Source: a bacterium
GTDB lineage: Bacteria; Blakebacterota; Blakebacteria; Blakebacterales; Blakebacteraceae
DNA length: 11,598 bases
Direction of reading: 5' to 3'
Assembly (NCBI GenBank): GCA_025774615.1
Contig: JALGVQ010000146.1
Coordinates: 1-11,598 of the forward strand
The notes below the pieces were generated by a model that was not told where the DNA came from, did not search any database, and was given only the letters and a program-made list of their open reading frames with translations. This document shows, in pieces, positions 2 through 8,449 of this stretch; positions within the stretch are counted from its first letter, which is position 1, and each line of letters opens with the position of its first letter. The position numbers were made by a program, and so were the translations under genes.

Positions 2-625
2 TCCGAGTTCCGGGGGAAGTTCACGCATACGGTTGAGGATCAGACTACCCGTCTGGTCAAACTCATCGACGACCTGCTCGATTACAGCAGGGAGACCAGG
101 CTGCATCTCTCTGATCTTGACCTCAATCTGCAGCTCCATCTGGCGGTGGGTGTCTTCCGCGACATGATGGTCAGCAACCGGATCGCGGTGTATGAAGATT
201 ACCGGTCGACCCGGAAGATCAAGGGAGATCCGGACAAACTTGAACAGGTCTTCTTCAACCTGATCAAGAATGCCATCGAGGCACAGGGTGAAGGGGGCGC
301 GATCGTGATTCTGACCGTGGATGATGGCCCGAGTGTACTCACGGTTGTGGCTGATGCAGGAGCAGGTGTCGACCCATCGACCAGGGAGAGCCTGTTCGAA
401 CCCTTTGTGACCACGAAATCGAAGGGGACCGGACTCGGCCTGGCTATCGCCGGAAAGGTCGTGATTGCCCACGGAGGTGAGATCGAACTCTTTTCACCCC
501 TGGAGGAGGTCGACACCGGTCTTCTGGAGCAGGTCCGGGTCACCCTTGGTGACCACTGGCCAGGGAACCGGCAGGGAAGCTGTTTCATGGTCAGGTTGCC
601 TGCGGTAACGGAGAGCGAGAACTGA
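2..625 (+). CDS. Sensor histidine kinase, C-terminal part (5' end outside window)
   Basis: The open frame enters from the left edge and ends at TGA 623-625. The first visible residues (about 1-30, ending in LVKLIDDLLDYS) match the second helix of a HisKA dimerisation domain, so the phospho-accepting His lies just upstream of the window. The ATP-binding HATPase_c domain follows with all its boxes: the N box (FFNLIKNAIEA), a G1 box reading DAGAGV, the F box (FEPFVTTK) and the G2 box GTGLGLAI. An acidic insertion lies between the G2 region and the last strand. The family autophosphorylates on His and passes the phosphate to a cognate receiver. Only 4 bases separate it from the sigma-54 activator gene downstream, so the two probably form an operon and a cognate pair. 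The input domain and any membrane segments cannot be seen. The kinase assignment is firm; the stimulus is unknown. Confidence 0.93.
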   Translation, partial: SEFRGKFTHTVEDQTTRLVKLIDDLLDYSRETRLHLSDLDLNLQLHLAVGVFRDMMVSNRIAVYEDYRSTRKIKGDPDKLEQVFFNLIKNAIEAQGEGGAIVILTVDDGPSVLTVVADAGAGVDPSTRESLFEPFVTTKSKGTGLGLAIAGKVVIAHGGEIELFSPLEEVDTGLLEQVRVTLGDHWPGNRQGSCFMVRLPAVTESEN

Positions 626-629
626 AGAT

Positions 630-2009
630 ATGGCCCGGATCCTGGCGATAGATGATGAGAAGAGCATCCTCGATTCCTATCGGATGGCTCTTGAAGATAT
701 GCATCAGGTCGAATTCGCGGAGAATGGCGAAGATGGCCTGAAATCTCTCGATGAATCGCTCTTCGATGTTGTGCTGCTCGATATCTCGATGCCCGGATTA
801 TCCGGGTTGGAAGTGCTGAAAGAGATCAATCGTCATGATCACGACTGCTCCATCATCATGGTGACGGTACACAAGGATGTGGAGACGATCGTCGAGGCGA
901 TGAAGTCGGGGGCAGATGACTATCTCACGAAACCATTCAAGGTCACCGAGCTGCGACATGCTGTGGATCGTGCTCTCAAGGTCATCGAACTGGAGAGGAA
1001 GAACCGCTCTCTTGAAGCGAGCCTGATGGCAACCGGGAATCGACAGGAGATCGTCTACCTCTCCCGATCGATGGAGGAAGTGTTCCAGGACCTCAGGAAG
1101 AGCGCGGTGAGCGACTCCTCCATCTTTCTCATGGGTGAGTCGGGGACCGGCAAGGAACTTGCCGCGCACTTCGTGCATGAACATTCCAACCGGTCTGAAG
1201 GACCGATCGTCACCGTCAACTGCGCGGCGATTCCGGATACCCTGCTCGAATCGGAGCTCTTCGGACACGAGAAGGGGGCCTTCAGTGGAGCCGGCGAACG
1301 GAAGATCGGGAAATTCGAACTCGCCCACAGGGGAACCATCTTCCTGGATGAGATAGGACTGCTCCCGATGGATCTGCAGGCAAAACTGCTCCGTACGATC
1401 GAGACCAGGGTGATCGAACGGGTGGGGGGAACCAAACCGATCCACCTTGATGTACGCTGGCTTGCGGCCACTAATCGTGATCCCGCCGTCCTGGTCGAAG
1501 AGGGGATCTTCCGTGAAGATCTCTTCTTCCGCCTGAATGTGATATCAATGAGCCTGCCGCCCCTTCGGGAGAGGCTGGATGATTTGCCGCTGCTCGCGAA
1601 ACACTTCCTGGATCAGTTCGGGCGTGATATGAAAAAGCCCCCTCTCACACTGAGTGAGGAGATTCTGGAAGTCTTTCAGGTGTATCCCTGGCCGGGCAAC
1701 GTCAGGGAACTCCGGAATCTGATCGAGCGGTTGATGGTGCTCGAACCCGGACCGGAAATCTCGGTGGAGCAGCTGCCGACGAGGATGCTTGAAGCGTATA
1801 GTGAGGCAGTGGGTGTCGATATCACTGACGTGACCGATTCGCGGTACAAGGAAGCTATCGAAGAGTTCAGGCGGAACTTCATCATTCGGGCGATGCGGGC
1901 CGCCAATGGGAATCAGACTCATGCTGCCCGTTCCCTGGGGCTCCATCGGAACACACTTCTCCACCATCTCAGGGAGATGCACATCGAATCGGAGGAATAT
2001 GGCCTCTGA
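630..2009 (+). CDS. NtrC-family sigma-54-dependent response regulator
   Basis: This 459-residue protein has the three-domain layout of the NtrC/ZraR/AtoC family. The receiver (about 1-120) has acidic pair D8/D9, phospho-acceptor D51, T79 and K101, all intact. The AAA+ domain (about 140-370) has Walker A GESGTGKE at 169-176, the sigma-54-contacting loop at 216-221 reading GAFSGA instead of GAFTGA, and Walker B FLDE ending at E241. The C-terminal Fis-type helix-turn-helix lies at about 426-450. The family hydrolyses ATP to remodel RNA polymerase-sigma-54 closed complexes after phosphorylation and oligomerisation. Four bases separate its start from the kinase stop. Because a -24/-12 promoter lies about 275 bp downstream of its stop, the adjacent pseudo-receiver unit is the obvious candidate target (inference). 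The Thr-to-Ser change in the loop is conservative and probably leaves it active. Confidence 0.97.
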   Translation: MARILAIDDEKSILDSYRMALEDMHQVEFAENGEDGLKSLDESLFDVVLLDISMPGLSGLEVLKEINRHDHDCSIIMVTVHKDVETIVEAMKSGADDYLTKPFKVTELRHAVDRALKVIELERKNRSLEASLMATGNRQEIVYLSRSMEEVFQDLRKSAVSDSSIFLMGESGTGKELAAHFVHEHSNRSEGPIVTVNCAAIPDTLLESELFGHEKGAFSGAGERKIGKFELAHRGTIFLDEIGLLPMDLQAKLLRTIETRVIERVGGTKPIHLDVRWLAATNRDPAVLVEEGIFREDLFFRLNVISMSLPPLRERLDDLPLLAKHFLDQFGRDMKKPPLTLSEEILEVFQVYPWPGNVRELRNLIERLMVLEPGPEISVEQLPTRMLEAYSEAVGVDITDVTDSRYKEAIEEFRRNFIIRAMRAANGNQTHAARSLGLHRNTLLHHLREMHIESEEYGL

Positions 2010-2360: not shown

Positions 2361-2798
2361 ATGGTGCTTGTTCTGGAGAGTGATGATGCACTGCGAGAGG
2401 CGGTTGTCGGGGCTCTCGAAGTTGCAGTCGCCACAATAAGCGCGCGGACCGGGCGTGAAGCGCTCCGGCTCCTGGAGGAATCGTCTCCCTCCATCGTGCT
2501 TCTGAATGTACAGATACGGGATATGGACGGAGTTGAATTCCTCCGGCAGGTCCGAATGCGCCTGCCCGATACAAAGGTCATCGTCACATCCGATTCTGGA
2601 GATTATCGACTGGTGCAACGGGTCATTGAGCTCGGTGTCGGTGATTTCCTCGAAAAACCGTACGAGATCGAGGACCTCTTTCACTCCCTCGATAATTCCG
2701 TTCGGGGGATCAGTTCACGTCTCGATGATCGGGTGCTGGCAGCTCGGTACCACGAGAAGAGCCGGCTCCGCCGGCAGACACTCCTCGTGGCATCATGA
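2361..2798 (+). CDS. Receiver-only protein with degenerate phosphorylation site (pseudo-receiver)
   Basis: This 145-residue protein consists of one CheY-like receiver domain (about 1-118) and a basic tail of about 27 residues with no recognisable output domain. I chose ATG 2361 because GAGGAG lies 8-9 bases before it, the receiver fold begins exactly there (MVLVLES), and an earlier in-frame ATG at 2238 would place the sigma-54 promoter inside the gene. The phospho-acceptor Asp is replaced by Asn: N49 in IVLLNVQIRDMDG, codon AAT at 2505-2507. The acidic pair is E6/S7 instead of Asp-Asp. The switch residue (T76 or S77) and K99 in the EKPYE motif are kept. Receivers of this kind usually cannot be phosphorylated normally and act by protein contact or another signal. 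It is followed after 7 bases by a small gene probably co-translated with it. Its partner is unknown. Confidence 0.88.
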   Translation: MVLVLESDDALREAVVGALEVAVATISARTGREALRLLEESSPSIVLLNVQIRDMDGVEFLRQVRMRLPDTKVIVTSDSGDYRLVQRVIELGVGDFLEKPYEIEDLFHSLDNSVRGISSRLDDRVLAARYHEKSRLRRQTLLVAS

Positions 2799-2805
2799 GG
2801 ATCAC

Positions 2806-3099
2806 ATGCGCATGACGGTGAGACCATGTCGGGAAGAAAAGAGCACAAACGTGGAACAGAGATTTCGACAGGAACTACTGGGGGAAGTGGGAAGGGAGCT
2901 TGAAACCATCAACAACTGGGCTCAGAACATGCTGAGAGGATGTGATCCGGATGATCTCAGGAGGGACTCCGGAGAAACCATCGTCTGCGAGATAGCGGCC
3001 CTCCATAAGTATATCGCGGATTCACAATGCCGGACGCATGCTTCTGTCGAGGTGTCCGGTTCTCGCACCGGGCCGTTCTGTCCGGCCGCCGAGAGATAA
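2806..3099 (+). CDS. Small protein resembling a lone HisKA dimerisation hairpin without the phospho-His
   Basis: A 97-residue hypothetical protein. ATG 2806 follows the receiver stop by 7 bases with GAGG 5 bases upstream. ATG 2812 and GTG 2851 (residue 16) are alternative starts. Residues 18-72 read like a histidine-kinase DHp hairpin. FRQELLGEVGRELETI aligns with the FLANVSHELRTP-type H box, with R30 at the His position. A charged turn (RGCDPDD) follows, then a second helix, ETIVCEIAALHKYIAD, comparable to the ETI..E..RLL.LI.D helix of kinases. There is no ATP-binding domain, signal peptide or membrane segment. The tail (73-97) is Ser/Gly/Pro-rich and its last codons lie inside a strong inverted repeat. 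It could dimerise, or dock on the pseudo-receiver or a kinase (inference). It could also be an eroded kinase fragment. The family resemblance is from reading only. Confidence 0.6.
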   Translation: MRMTVRPCREEKSTNVEQRFRQELLGEVGRELETINNWAQNMLRGCDPDDLRRDSGETIVCEIAALHKYIADSQCRTHASVEVSGSRTGPFCPAAER

Positions 3100-3121
3100 C
3101 CACTGATGGCGGCCGGACAGA
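3077..3121. terminator. 14-bp inverted repeat, likely transcription terminator or RNA-stabilising hairpin
   Basis: A perfect inverted repeat has arms TCTGTCCGGCCGCC (3077-3090) and GGCGGCCGGACAGA (3108-3121) around a 17-base loop. It overlaps the stop codon (3097-3099) of the small DHp-like gene and sits between that gene and the end of the minus-strand tRNA-Leu gene. It is followed on the plus strand by only a weak T-rich stretch, so it may work in either direction or with Rho. Confidence 0.6.
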
Positions 3122-3170
3122 TATATTCATTCAGGTACTCTGATGTGGGGAGATGCCACAGGAGAGTAAA

Positions 3171-3257
3171 TGGTGCCGGAGGCCGGACTCGAACCGGCAC
3201 AGTGTTGCCACCGGGGGATTTTGAGTCCCCTGCGTCTACCAATTTCGCCACTCCGGC
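3171..3257 (-). tRNA. tRNA-Leu (anticodon CAA)
   Basis: Read on the minus strand, this is an 87-nt class II tRNA with CCA encoded in the genome. The acceptor stem is GCCGGAG/CTCCGGC with discriminator A. The D arm contains GGTAGACGC. The anticodon stem GGGGA/TCCCC encloses loop CTCAAAA, so the anticodon is CAA (reads UUG). A long variable arm is followed by the T arm GCCGG-TTCGAGT-CCGGC. The long variable arm together with the CAA anticodon identifies leucine. It is transcribed away from the hybrid kinase gene, from a strong promoter just upstream. No integrase gene or duplicated tRNA 3' end is visible in the window. Confidence 0.97.
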
Positions 3258-3362: not shown

Positions 3363-4877
3363 ATGATGCCTGATAACGAGCAAGGATCAGCGTCAATCCA
3401 GGACGGCAGCGAGCCGATGTCCCTGGTGCTCGACCAGCTGCCCATTGGTGTCGCTCTGGTGGATGACGCCGGCGAACTCCTCTATCTCAATCCCGCCTTC
3501 CGAGAGATCAGTGATGCTCCCCAATTCACCAGTGCGATTCAGAAGCTGTACGACGGTGAACCGGTTAATGATCTGCTCTCCCTGACCAGAGCCGACCAGA
3601 ACGATCGTGAGGTCGAACATATATACCGGCTCCGTGGTTTCCACCTTGAAGGATCGGGTAACGGCAGTTCCAGATCGATGATGCTGGTCGAAGACATCAC
3701 CGAATCGTACCGGCTCAAGATGAACCTGAGGCGCGCCCAGCGGATGGAGAGCGTGGGCAGCATGGCCAGTGCTGTGGCCCATGACTTCAACAATATCCTG
3801 ACCGTGATCCTGCAGAGTGTGCATCTGCTGAAGCAGCAACTGCCTCAGGAGCGTGCATATCTCGATCCTCTCGATGTGATCGAGGGGACTACGTTGAATG
3901 CCGGCGAACTGGCACAACAGCTCCTGACTCTCTCAAAACCCAGGATCGTGGACTGGAAAGATCTCGACCTGAACGCGGTGATCAGGGATGCGCTGCCGAT
4001 CCTGGAGCGTGTGCTGCGGGAGGGTATCAGGCTGGAATGTGAACTTGAAGACGACCTCTGGAGTGTATGCTCCGACCCTTCCCAGATCCTGCATATCCTC
4101 CTGAACCTGTGTATCAATGCCCAGGAAGCCATGGAGGGGCAGGGAAAGATCACCATTTCCACACGGAAGATCGACCGGAGCAGGGTCCCACAGGTGGAAG
4201 GCGGTCTGGCAACGGGTCATTACGTCCTGCTCTCTGTTCTGGACGAGGGGCCTGGCATACCGCCTGAGCTGGCCGACCGGGTCTTCGATCCCTTCTTCAC
4301 CACCAAGGAGATGGGAACCGGGCTCGGTCTCTCGACCGCGTACACGTTCGCGGCCGAACAGGGCGGCACGGTAACGCTCTATTCTGAAGACGGCCATGGT
4401 ACAAGGATCAATCTGTACCTCAAGGCTGAACCGCGTCCGCCGGTAATCTCGGAAGTGGATGACGATCTGGTGGCAGGTGAGGACCTGACCGGTAGCGAAA
4501 CACTCCTTCTGGTTGATGATGAGTGGCTCGTGCTTGATCTGGCCCGCGAGATCCTCTCTCAGCAGGGATATTCCATCATAACCGCCTCATCCGGTGAGGA
4601 GGCGGTCGAGATCATCAGATCATCTGAGGAACGGATTCCTCTCGTGATACTCGACATGGCGATGCCGGGAATGAACGGACTGGAAACGTTGCGGGCCATC
4701 CGGGTCCATGAACCGGGGATCCGTGCCATCATCTCCAGCGGTTTCCACGCCACGCAGAAAATGCACAAGGTGCTGGATGCAGAAGTTGATGTATTCGTCA
4801 ACAAACCATATGAGATCGACCATCTGGTGCGAGAGGTCAGGCATCTCCTCGATGCCGGATCGATCCTCCCCGACTGA
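3363..4877 (+). CDS. Soluble hybrid histidine kinase (PAS-HisKA-HATPase-receiver)
   Basis: A 504-residue protein with no signal peptide or membrane segment, so it should act in the cytoplasm. A PAS-like domain (about 18-115, LPIGVALVDDAGELLYLNPAF, ending MMLVEDITE) is followed by a HisKA domain whose H box is AVAHDFNNIL with H140. The HATPase domain has N252 in the N box, a G1 box DEGPGIP at 294-300, FDPFFTTK, and GTGLGL at 318-323. A C-terminal receiver (about 379-495) has D385/D386, phospho-acceptor D431, S458/S459 and K481. All catalytic residues are intact. HDFNN kinases of this type commonly carry a fused receiver. GAGGTG at 3352-3357 suits either ATG 3363 or the adjacent ATG 3366, the latter with better spacing. 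No clear promoter was found in 3302-3362. No separate output protein follows, so the phosphate may pass to another protein or the receiver may regulate the kinase itself. Confidence 0.95.
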   Translation: MMPDNEQGSASIQDGSEPMSLVLDQLPIGVALVDDAGELLYLNPAFREISDAPQFTSAIQKLYDGEPVNDLLSLTRADQNDREVEHIYRLRGFHLEGSGNGSSRSMMLVEDITESYRLKMNLRRAQRMESVGSMASAVAHDFNNILTVILQSVHLLKQQLPQERAYLDPLDVIEGTTLNAGELAQQLLTLSKPRIVDWKDLDLNAVIRDALPILERVLREGIRLECELEDDLWSVCSDPSQILHILLNLCINAQEAMEGQGKITISTRKIDRSRVPQVEGGLATGHYVLLSVLDEGPGIPPELADRVFDPFFTTKEMGTGLGLSTAYTFAAEQGGTVTLYSEDGHGTRINLYLKAEPRPPVISEVDDDLVAGEDLTGSETLLLVDDEWLVLDLAREILSQQGYSIITASSGEEAVEIIRSSEERIPLVILDMAMPGMNGLETLRAIRVHEPGIRAIISSGFHATQKMHKVLDAEVDVFVNKPYEIDHLVREVRHLLDAGSILPD

Positions 4878-4994: not shown

Positions 4995-6128
4995 CTTTTC
5001 ACTCCGGTCACGATAGGATCGCTCACACTCCAGAACAGGCTCATTCGAGCCGCCTGTGGTGAGCGTCGGGCAGACCGCGCCGGCTTGGTCACACATGAGA
5101 TGCTCGCATACGTGGATGAGCTCGCTCGCGGTGGTTGCGGCCTGGTGATACTTGGCCATGGGTATATCCGTCGTGATGGACGGTTGACCGATAATGAAAC
5201 AGGGCTCGACCGAGATGAACAGGTCTCGCGGCTCGGCCTTGTCGCCGATCAGATCAGGGCCGGCGGCGCAAAAGCGGTAATACAGATCAGCCACGGAGGC
5301 GCGCAGTGCCGGCCATCGGTCATCGAGACCACACCGGTCTCTCCCTCGGGGGTCGAAGTGCGCAAAACGAAGGTTGTGCCGCGCATACTCGAACCGGATG
5401 AGATCGTCGAACTGGTAGCGGATTTCGCCGCCGCCGCAGGTCGGGTGAAAGATGCCGGATTCGACGGGGTTCAGATCCATGCCGCGCACGGGTACCTGAT
5501 CACGCAGTTCCTGAGTCCGGCGTCCAACCTGAGAGAGGATGAGTGGGGAGGATCGCCCGAAAAGCGGTTCCACTTCCTCTCGACATTGATCGGGGCGGTG
5601 CAGGAGCGTGTCGGTGATGACTTTCCGGTTCTCATCAAGCTGAACCTTGATGACTGCATACCGAAGGGTATTCCACTGAGTGAGGCTCTCAATGTTGCCA
5701 CAGCCGTTTCCGACCTCGGGATCGCGGCGATCGAAGTAAGCGGCGGGGTGGTGGACTCAGAGCGCGGGGCAGCGCGTAAGGGCATCACTCCCGGCAAACA
5801 GGAGGCCTACTTCCGCAGCATGGCTCGCGAAGTGAAGAGGATGGTGGATTGTCCCGTAATCCTGGTAGGGGGGTTGAAGTCGCTCCCGGTTATCAATGAT
5901 TGTCTGGAGAGCGAGGATGCCGACCTTGTGGCGCTCGGACGACCTCTGATAAGGGAGCCGCGTCTGCCACTGGATTGGCTCGATGGACGGGACACACCGG
6001 CTGACTGTGTCTCATGCAACCGTTGCGCGCTTTATAAGGATAGACCCCTCCGTTGTGAGACGCTCGTGCTGGAACAGGAGCAGGCAGAGAAGGAGAGGGA
6101 GCAGGGAAAAGAGAAGGAAGAAGAGTAG
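4992..6128 (+). CDS. Old Yellow Enzyme-family NADH:flavin oxidoreductase
   Basis: A 378-residue FMN-dependent (beta/alpha)8-barrel enzyme of the OYE family. N-terminal LFTPVTIGSLTLQNRLIRAAC and the R-A-A-C-G-E segment (C22) resemble the subfamily with N-R-x-V-R-S-A-T-x-E. QISHGGAQ follows at 98-105. The substrate-binding pair H163/H166 and Y168 sit in HAAHGYL, followed by FLSPASN (173-179) and W-G-G-S. Phosphate-binding strands ILVGGLKS and LVALGRPL come near the end. After the barrel lies C339-x2-C342-x2-C345-x9-C355, reminiscent of the Fe-S cysteines of 2,4-dienoyl-CoA reductase-type relatives, but the C-terminal NAD(P)-binding domain of those proteins is absent. The tail (361-378) is almost all Glu/Lys/Gln. 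The family reduces activated C=C bonds using NAD(P)H; the substrate here is unknown. The start ATG has GGAGG 6 bases upstream and lies in a predicted hairpin. It converges with the PBP gene 12 bases downstream. Confidence 0.92.
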   Translation: MLFTPVTIGSLTLQNRLIRAACGERRADRAGLVTHEMLAYVDELARGGCGLVILGHGYIRRDGRLTDNETGLDRDEQVSRLGLVADQIRAGGAKAVIQISHGGAQCRPSVIETTPVSPSGVEVRKTKVVPRILEPDEIVELVADFAAAAGRVKDAGFDGVQIHAAHGYLITQFLSPASNLREDEWGGSPEKRFHFLSTLIGAVQERVGDDFPVLIKLNLDDCIPKGIPLSEALNVATAVSDLGIAAIEVSGGVVDSERGAARKGITPGKQEAYFRSMAREVKRMVDCPVILVGGLKSLPVINDCLESEDADLVALGRPLIREPRLPLDWLDGRDTPADCVSCNRCALYKDRPLRCETLVLEQEQAEKEREQGKEKEEE

Positions 6129-6140
6129 CCTGATCCTGGA

Positions 6141-8449
6141 TCAGTTCGGTGGAAGAGGGGGTATGGGTGGAATCCTTCTCCAGAAATCACGGTTCAGCCG
6201 TGGATCGTGTACCGTGCATTCTTCGGTCGGCTGATTCGTTATCAGGAAGATCTCGGTGAACCGGTCGGGACAGGTCGGCAGCGCGAGTTTGTAATCGGGG
6301 TCCTCCGCGGTATAGCTCGAAGCGCACAGTTCCACCTCCACGATCCCCGGCGGCCGCACCCAGTCATCCTTCGGCAGACCACGTTCCTCATCCTTGTAGA
6401 GATCTCTGATGAAACGGGCCCAGACCGGCATCGCCATCACGGCACCGGATGGATCGGGTAATCCGGTCACCGGGCGTCCACCCGGTATTCGCATGGTCAT
6501 CCGGTCGTTGAACCCGATCCAGACCCCGGCCACGATGTGCGGTGTGTAACCGTAGAACCAGGCATCGCTCCAGTCGTTGGTAGTACCGGTTTTGCCGCCT
6601 GCCGGAACGTCAACGTAATAGACGCTGCGAGCCAATCCCGCGGTCCCGCCCTCTTCCAGCACCCCCTTCATGAGATCGACGACGAGGTAGGCAAGAGCAG
6701 GTTCGAGCACTCTGGAGAGTTTCACCGGTGGTGCTTCGATCTCCCGTCCGAATCGATCCCGCACATATCTGACCATCCGTGGTTCAGCCCGGGTGCCGAG
6801 GTTGGCAAAGGTCGTGAAGGCGCTGACCATTTCGATCAGAAGAACTTCACTCGATCCGATCGCCAGGGAGGGGAAGGGGCGGAGGGGAGTCGTGATCCCG
6901 AACATCTTCGCGTAATCCACCAGGATGCCGGGATTCATCGAACCGTGGCGACCGAGGCCGCCTCCAGATGCGCCAGACACGATTCGGGCAGCCACCAGGT
7001 TGATCGAGCGTCGCAGAGCATTGCGTATTGTGAGCGGTTCACTGAAGGTGCCGTAGTAGTTCTCCGGTGTCCAGCGCGAGCCGTCGGGCTGGAAGAGAGT
7101 GATCGGTTGATTAAAGACACGCGTGGCCGCTGTGTAGCCATTGTCGAGGGCAGCCGTGTAGAGGAACGGTTTGAATGAGGACCCGGCCTGCCTCAGCGCC
7201 TGGGTGGCGTTGTTGAACTGGTATTCCTGACCATCGCGAGTACGTCACCGTTTTTGGGGTCCATGGCGACGAAGGCCCCCTGGAGGGTATAGCGCCTTCG
7301 CAGTGCCTCTATGGACGATGTGTCGGGCTCGACACCTTCGGGAGTGTTGTCGAGGATCTCCTGGATGGCGGGCTGGATGATCCACTCATCGTAGCCCTTC
7401 TGCTTGTCCGCGAGCATGGTGAGCAGATGTTTCTCCGCCAGGGCCTGGATACCGGAGTCGAGGGTGGTCTGGATCGTTGCTCCATCTCTATAGAGGATAT
7501 CGGCGCCATATTTCCTCTCAAGGTCCTGTCTGATCCACTCGACGAAATAGGGGGCGGCCGGGACCTCATCCTCCCGCTCCACGAACTCCAGCGGCTTGCG
7601 GGCCAGGGTGTCCACGGCTGAATGCTCCAGATAGCCTGCCGCCACCATGTAATCGAGCACCCTGTTCCTGCGCTGCAGCGCCAGATCGGGCCTGTTGTAG
7701 TAGTAATACGGTCCCTGCAGGATGCCGACCAGGTAGGCACTCTCCAGCAGGTCAAGAGCCTCGACATCCTTGTCGAAGTAGTTCTGGGCTGCCTGCTGGA
7801 TACCGTACGCGCCATTGGCGAAATAGACCTCATTCAGGAACATCGAAAGGAGTTCGTCCTTGGAGTAATTGCTTTCAAGGGCGATGGCGGTAAGCTGTTC
7901 CCTCAGTTTTCTGGTAATGCTGTCCTCGGTACCGACGCTGGCGAACAGGTTCCGGGCCAGCTGCTGGGTGATTGTGCTGGCGCCCGAGATGATCTCCATG
8001 TTCCGGATATTGTCGAGCATCGCCGCTGCCAGTCGACGCAGGTTGACTCCCCAATGGTCATAGAAATCACGGTCTTCAGTTGCCAGGAGCGCTTCTTTGA
8101 GGTGCCGGGGGATCTGGTTGAGCGTTACCGGTACCCGCTGCTGTGTGTAGAATTCCTTCAGGGTGAGTCCATTGGCGTCATACACGCGGGTGATGAGGCG
8201 CTGTTCGAATCGCTCGAGTTCCGAAGGAGTCGGCAGATTGCGGGAGAGTGCATAGAGGATGAACGCGGATATCATACCTGCCAGAAGGCTGAGAACCGTG
8301 ACCTGGATCAGGAACTTCCGCCCCCATTTCCGGGGGAGCCAGTCCTTGAGATTGTCATACCGGATGAACGCCCACACGGCGGAAAAAACGCGCTTCACCA
8401 GGCGCTTCATCCGGGCCATGATTCCCTGAGATCCGGTGCTATCGGGCAC
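6141..8449 (-). pseudogene. mrcA: Class A penicillin-binding protein (PBP1A type), frame broken between the catalytic domains
   Basis: Read from GTG 8449 (AAGGAA about 8 bases upstream), the product has a basic cytoplasmic N-terminus, one membrane helix (about 46-68), and a GT51 glycosyltransferase domain with catalytic E125 in LLATEDRDFYDHWG and GASTITQQ at 156-163. The first frame ends at TGA 7193-7195 after GDVLAMVRNTSS. The other frame continues without a stop from about 7223 with YQFNNATQALRQAGSSFKPF and has every transpeptidase motif: S-S-F-K, S-I-N and K-T-G-T-T. It ends at 6141. Families of this kind polymerise and cross-link peptidoglycan. The whole region would give about 770 residues, normal for PBP1A. 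The break lies at about 7222-7235, where relatives have VLAMVGG plus several residues before F-N-x-A-T-Q-A. Here the GG and some following residues are missing, so a small out-of-frame deletion fits better than a one-base error. A sequencing or assembly error remains possible. Confidence 0.85.

Follow-up and report, generated by a model that had tools for sequence, protein, structure and literature searches.

A stand-alone pseudo-receiver conserved behind a kinase and an NtrC-type regulator, possibly a feedback brake

The stretch of DNA analysed here (the window; 11,598 nucleotides) contains at positions 2361–2798 of the forward strand a gene for a stand-alone receiver protein that has lost its phospho-acceptor aspartate. 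The gene is a maintained pseudo-receiver and not a product of decay. In all three species in which it was found, it lies just behind a pair of genes for a histidine kinase and an NtrC-type activator and is preceded by a palindrome and a sigma-54 promoter of its own, an arrangement that is new here. The most likely loop, judged from sequence, is that of a two-component system that induces its own restraint, a non-phosphorylatable receiver. More specifically, the pseudo-receiver is tentatively interpreted as a feedback brake with either the kinase or the receiver of the regulator as its docking partner, a reading to which we give a probability a little below even.

Results

The pseudo-receiver protein

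The 145-residue protein matches the Pfam family Response_reg (PF00072) with 68.4 bits (cut-off 30.2) and an E-value of 7.5e-19 over positions 1–110 of 111. Response_reg is the sole domain matched, and the protein is without an output domain. Among solved structures, it is closest to the receivers of NtrC-family activators (NtrC1, E 1e-15). The active site aligns without gaps to those of NtrC1 and of the receiver of the adjacent regulator, which places N49 at the position of the phospho-acceptor Asp and E6/S7 at that of the acidic (DD) pair, the latter being disrupted. Both replacements, and the receiver fold itself, had been put forward in the original prediction, and the Pfam match and the alignments agree with it. 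Residues T76, F96, and K99 are kept, and the receiver domain is followed by a conserved basic C-terminal tail (residues 116–145). The protein of the window species contains no cysteine. Its predicted structure, computed from an alignment of three rows, is poor (pLDDT 61). A receiver tree positions the pseudo-receiver on a long branch, loosely among the receivers of hybrid kinases (0.90), and does not settle its origin; unlike the tree, pairwise scores favour NtrC-type receivers as its kin.

Orthologues of the pseudo-receiver are present in only two other genomes: G001 (Meg22_46_Bin_213), with 88% identity, and G002 (RS_11_2, filed as Candidatus Latescibacterota), with 63%. A wider search of 386 relatives and of GTDB contigs returned the same two orthologues and generic receivers. 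The lineage sample consists of four genomes including that of the window (G000), all of them fragmented drafts with a total of about 10 Mb; the fourth, which is 63% complete, contains neither a pseudo-receiver nor an orthologue of the regulator.

All three species share residues E6, S7, D8, D9, N49, T76, F96, and K99 without exception, and 12 positions of the basic tail are likewise invariant. For the two most closely related species, dN is approximately 0.07 and dS approximately 1.1–1.4, which gives a dN/dS of about 0.055, comparable to the value of about 0.10 for the neighbouring activator. This strong purifying selection, together with the invariance of N49, E6, and S7, indicates that the pseudo-receiver is maintained. 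The phospho-acceptor Asp is restored in neither orthologue, so that its loss has been kept, as in the class of pseudo-receivers or aspartate-less receivers. The original prediction had argued that a phosphorylation-independent receiver was kept here and was not decaying at random, and had named the residue at position 49 in relatives and the dN/dS ratio as checks; both came out in its favour, with Asn in three of three species.

Gene order around the pseudo-receiver

The order of genes for a HAMP-containing kinase, an NtrC-type activator with an intact phospho-Asp, and the pseudo-receiver is identical in the three species. At its start, the window contains the C-terminal part of the sensor histidine kinase (2–625, forward strand), comprising the end of the DHp domain and HATPase_c (Pfam E 4e-20). 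The N-terminal part with HAMP is on another contig of the window species, C277, and the whole orthologue in the sister genome G001 is 499 residues long. The kinase is followed by the sigma-54 activator (630–2009, forward strand), with Response_reg, Sigma54_activat, and HTH_8 domains, orthologues of which are located in the same place with identities of 83% and 72%. It is the presumed activator of the pseudo-receiver gene.

On contig C277, the front half of the kinase gene comes after genes for a B12-binding radical SAM protein and an SBP_bac_5 solute-binding protein, and upstream of these lies a cyclase gene. The complete order of radical SAM protein, solute-binding protein, kinase, and regulator is found on a single contig of G001. 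It is unusual for a B12-binding radical SAM protein (L098 710–3987, reverse strand) to stand at the head of an operon that also encodes a HAMP kinase, an NtrC-type activator, and a solute-binding protein of the peptide/nickel type. The radical SAM gene of G001 is frameshifted (L045 746–2159, reverse strand), and the pseudo-receiver is intact in the same genome. Elsewhere in the window (6141–8449, reverse strand), a gene of the penicillin-binding protein 1A type is divided into two open reading frames. In the sister genome the frame is unbroken across the part present, and the split in the window is either a draft frameshift or a broken gene.

Promoter and palindrome

A sigma-54 (−24/−12) promoter, TGGCATGCCTCTTGCA, is located at 2284–2299 of the forward strand and is the sole match of at least 10/12 on the two strands of the window. 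The relatives have corresponding sites (TGGCACGTCTCTTGCA, 12/12, in G001 and TGGCATGGGTATTGCG in G002), the distance to the pseudo-receiver gene being 64–77 nt. The number of such promoters expected by chance in that gap is about 0.01. The gene rpoN, encoding sigma-54, is present in all four genomes.

Further upstream, at 2139–2156 of the forward strand, there is a palindrome that is a putative enhancer site of the regulator. It can be aligned across the three species (TGCACAATATTTCGTGCA / TGCTCAATACATTGTGCA / TGCATAATCTGTTGTGCA) and has the form TGCnnAAT-GTGCA. These three sites alone were used to derive a pattern, which was then searched for in the four genomes (about 10 Mb). Beyond the starting sites, exact matches were found in G001, where there are two before the radical SAM gene, one of them the perfect TGCACAATATATTGTGCA, and in the window genome, where one is before the radical SAM gene on C277 and one is inside a long open frame on C310. 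The reversed control pattern gave no match over the same four genomes. In both genomes that have the radical SAM operon, a sigma-54 promoter, TGGCACGGGAGTTGCG, precedes the radical SAM gene. The same palindrome and a sigma-54 promoter precede both the pseudo-receiver gene and the operon of the radical SAM protein, solute-binding protein, kinase, and regulator. The simplest reading of these sites is that the activator of the operon would bind the palindrome, activate its own operon, and also cause the pseudo-receiver to be made.

Contig C362 of G001 (L099) contains a one-mismatch palindrome with a second near-copy and a sigma-54-like site (5102–5119 and 5299–5314) before a gene for a prepilin-like protein of 1202 residues. 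Judged by these sites, the prepilin-like gene is a possible third target of the regulator.

The small hairpin protein

A second open frame, of 97 codons (2806–3099, forward strand), begins 7 nt behind the pseudo-receiver gene, in accordance with the original description of two open and adjacent frames. AlphaFold predicts a hairpin of two helices (residues 14–44 and 51–79), both with pLDDT above 90, followed by a disordered stretch that starts at about residue 80. G002 encodes a homologue of 69 residues in the same place and on the same strand, with 38% identity over the conserved core (residues ~19–80). This in-frame conservation between genera at the same genomic position indicates that the frame is a real gene; by third-position codon composition it is not separable from the other frames. 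The C-terminal ~18 residues overlap a conserved RNA/DNA hairpin, are not conserved as protein, and are predicted to be disordered. In G001, the nearest relative, the gene is absent though the pseudo-receiver is retained. Only DNA matching residues 64–95 is left, and the conserved 3′ element lies about 165 nt closer to the pseudo-receiver stop codon. The conservation of this remnant is owed to the strong hairpin to which it belongs and not to the protein. Insofar as the pseudo-receiver persists in G001 in its absence, the hairpin protein is dispensable.

The original prediction regarded this protein as a lone HisKA hairpin with R30 in place of the phospho-accepting His, and the two genes as two halves of a phosphorelay that had both lost their phosphorylated residue. 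Searches of Pfam and NCBIfam gave no match, and HisKA was unmatched at E-values up to 10 for either homologue, so that of the two domains expected from Pfam only Response_reg, in the 145-residue protein, was recovered. The best PDB sequence match is THR5, with repeated helices, which suggests a designed protein. The two long antiparallel helices of a HisKA/DHp hairpin are present, but this fold is generic and not diagnostic: unrelated helical hairpins match the predicted structure as well or better (Foldseek, VIA-align), and the hairpins of ZraS and ERS1 are among the structural matches. The phospho-accepting His is absent, and R30 is a Leu in the G002 homologue.

A marginal profile signal is left. 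The two-sequence alignment of the small hairpin was compared by hhalign with a profile of 24 kinase hairpins, 20 from the window genome and four from the flanking kinases and their orthologues; the G257 kinase, which had been picked by the small-hairpin profile itself, was left out. The probability was 58%, and the real score ranked second among 201, one of 200 shuffles that preserve the hydrophobic pattern being higher. The alignment sets R30 on the phospho-accepting His. As a single sequence, the 97-residue protein scores inside the range of the shuffles. The weak matches of the small-hairpin profile in the genomes include one NtrB-like kinase hairpin; two others, L053 and L054, were discarded as noise, being an open frame that overlaps a different gene and a methyl-accepting protein.

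The searches of Pfam, NCBIfam, and PDB sequences are thus unconvincing as to HisKA membership, and descent from a kinase hairpin through loss of the His is possible and weakly supported rather than established. Arg is indeed at residue 30 and falls on the His in the profile alignment; it is not conserved, and the gene pair is found in G002 and not in G001. The claim that both halves lost their phosphorylated residue is therefore not established beyond the receiver, even though neither Asp nor His, the restoration of which had been named as evidence against it, is restored in the orthologues. The 97-residue protein is probably an accessory hairpin and not a proven pseudo-kinase.

The 3′ boundary and the downstream hybrid kinase

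A perfect 13-bp stem (3078–3090 / 3108–3120, forward strand; fold z −4.0) overlaps the end of the small open frame and is kept in G001, where that frame is gone. It is likely to be a boundary or terminator between the forward-strand operon and the convergent gene for tRNA-Leu (CAA) at 3171–3257 of the reverse strand, identified by ARAGORN and Rfam. A terminator with a T-run was looked for after the small open frame and not found. The sequence 3028–3125, which separates the pseudo-receiver operon from tRNA-Leu, folds into a very stable double hairpin (−50 kcal/mol, z −4.0) that is conserved in the sister genome and has no match in Rfam.

The next gene of the forward strand (3363–4877) encodes a hybrid kinase with the Pfam domains PAS, HisKA, HATPase, and REC and with intact His and Asp; it is probably a separate transcription unit. 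Its best NCBIfam match is CckA, below the cut-off. In G002 a lone Asp-bearing receiver (L044 3674–4105, forward strand) stands at this position instead, 42 nt behind the hairpin gene and 45% identical to the receiver part of the hybrid kinase, and in G001 the frame of the hybrid kinase (L039 2383–3910, reverse strand) is interrupted before the receiver. The hybrid kinase is therefore a less constant neighbour. The interrupted hybrid kinase frame, split radical SAM frame, and missing hairpin gene of G001 may be assembly errors.

Discussion

The promoter architecture points to autoregulation. The adjacent membrane kinase would phosphorylate the NtrC-type regulator, which, as we infer, would then bind the TGCACAAT-N2-ATTGTGCA palindromes and, through the sigma-54 promoters, switch on its own operon (B12-radical SAM protein, solute-binding protein, kinase, and regulator) and the pseudo-receiver gene. 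Since the pseudo-receiver cannot take phosphate (N49, S7), it would dock on the helical hairpin of the kinase or pair with the receiver of the regulator and so damp a circuit that would otherwise amplify itself, in the manner of FixT on FixL and Osp on CckA. Self-amplification combined with a co-made unphosphorylatable receiver is the wiring of FixT and Osp, and the autoregulatory promoter architecture and these precedents make the brake the best reading. We infer both the sign of the effect, kinase inhibition, and the docking target from these analogies. The sample comprises three pseudo-receiver sequences, each from a fragmented draft genome.

FixT of Caulobacter crescentus and Sinorhizobium meliloti is a single-domain receiver without the acidic pair whose production is governed by its own system and which blocks kinase autophosphorylation (PMC7078487). 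Like the pseudo-receiver, as judged by sequence, it is not phosphorylated. Induction of the FixT gene by the two-component system to which it belongs closes a negative loop on the kinase, and the same is proposed for the pseudo-receiver. However, FixT is under the control of FixJ and not of sigma-54, whereas the pseudo-receiver gene has a sigma-54 promoter; the phospho-acceptor Asp itself is an Asn in the pseudo-receiver, unlike in FixT, and kinase inhibition is predicted here. The Fe-S motif of four cysteines, which is unique to the Caulobacter FixT (PMC7078487), is absent from the cysteine-free protein of the window species. Osp of Rhodobacter sphaeroides, also a single-domain receiver without the acidic pair, is under CtrA, the regulator of its own system, and binds the transmitter domain of the kinase, thereby blocking autophosphorylation; such control by single-domain receivers is possibly common (PMC9430884). 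Like the pseudo-receiver, Osp is unphosphorylated. However, its target is the hybrid kinase CckA, whereas the pseudo-receiver has an NtrC-type regulator and a simple kinase as its conserved neighbours.

The main rival reading, possible though rather unlikely, is that the pseudo-receiver is a constitutively active output, its amount being set by the two-component system, and that it binds some other protein, for example through the basic tail. Being under the control of its own system could equally mark such an output. CmrT of Clostridioides difficile is, like the protein described here, a pseudo-receiver protein encoded with a normal kinase/regulator pair (CmrRST; PMC12632262, PMC12548384), by which it is induced, as is proposed here, and it has been discussed as a constitutively active output (PMC12632262). 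However, CmrT is a DNA-binding regulator of the OmpR family, and the pseudo-receiver has no effector domain. Aspartate-less receivers and pseudo-receivers (PMC4395418, PMC12632262) share with this protein the absence of the phospho-Asp, the loss of the second acidic residue, and the retention of T, K, and the aromatic residue at K-3; those described are often attached to effector domains, whereas this one is stand-alone with a short conserved basic tail. The Y-T coupling residues T76 and F96, kept in only about half of pseudo-receivers (PMC12632262), the strong conservation of the tail, and a promoter separate from the kinase operon are consistent with an output. The position of the gene directly behind the kinase/regulator pair in three of three genomes argues against it, as does the fact that single-domain receivers with the same wiring, where tested (FixT, Osp), are inhibitors.

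For the feedback brake, the hairpin protein, where present, would be an accessory that either binds a kinase or pairs with the pseudo-receiver. It may be a helper resembling Sda of Bacillus subtilis, a small antiparallel helical hairpin that acts as an antikinase (PMC9430884). Sda has 46 residues and belongs to a comparable fold class, the likeness being one of predicted fold. A role in which the pseudo-receiver and a pseudo-kinase hairpin form one phosphorylation-independent pair, which mimics a receiver docked to a dimeric kinase hairpin and sequesters an active kinase or receiver, is unlikely. The confident helical prediction, the hhalign result with R30 on the His, the NtrB-like profile match, and the resemblance to ZraS and ERS1 hairpins favour such a pair, but Pfam HisKA is unmatched, the single sequence scores like shuffles, unrelated hairpins fit equally well or better, R30 is not conserved, and G001 keeps the pseudo-receiver alone. 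Distinctly unlikely is its extension to an inert copy of the whole phosphorelay interface, in which the pseudo-receiver and the His-less hairpin, co-made under the system that they imitate, would be a two-sided feedback decoy, with one part on the kinase and the other on the regulator.

That the brake targets the downstream CckA-like hybrid kinase instead of the upstream pair, as Osp does CckA, is very unlikely: the hybrid kinase is the next gene on the strand and has CckA as its best, sub-threshold match, but the convergent tRNA-Leu and the strong stem lie between, and the pseudo-receiver is intact in both relatives, where the hybrid kinase is replaced or interrupted. Decay of functionless phosphorelay remnants, to which the loss of the small frame in one of three genomes and the interruption of other genes of the G001 locus might point, is most improbable and already contradicted for the receiver by its low dN/dS, its intactness in three species, and its conserved promoter.

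The mode of action of pseudo-receivers has been described as an open question (PMC12632262). The protein described here is a stand-alone pseudo-receiver of an uncultured lineage, encoded beside its presumed target pair and apparently made by a self-amplifying sigma-54 circuit. It offers a compact three-protein system for measuring the effect of a non-phosphorylatable receiver on a kinase. If the brake reading is true, it would extend kinase control of the FixT/Osp type to NtrC-type systems outside Alphaproteobacteria and suggest that this wiring arose repeatedly.
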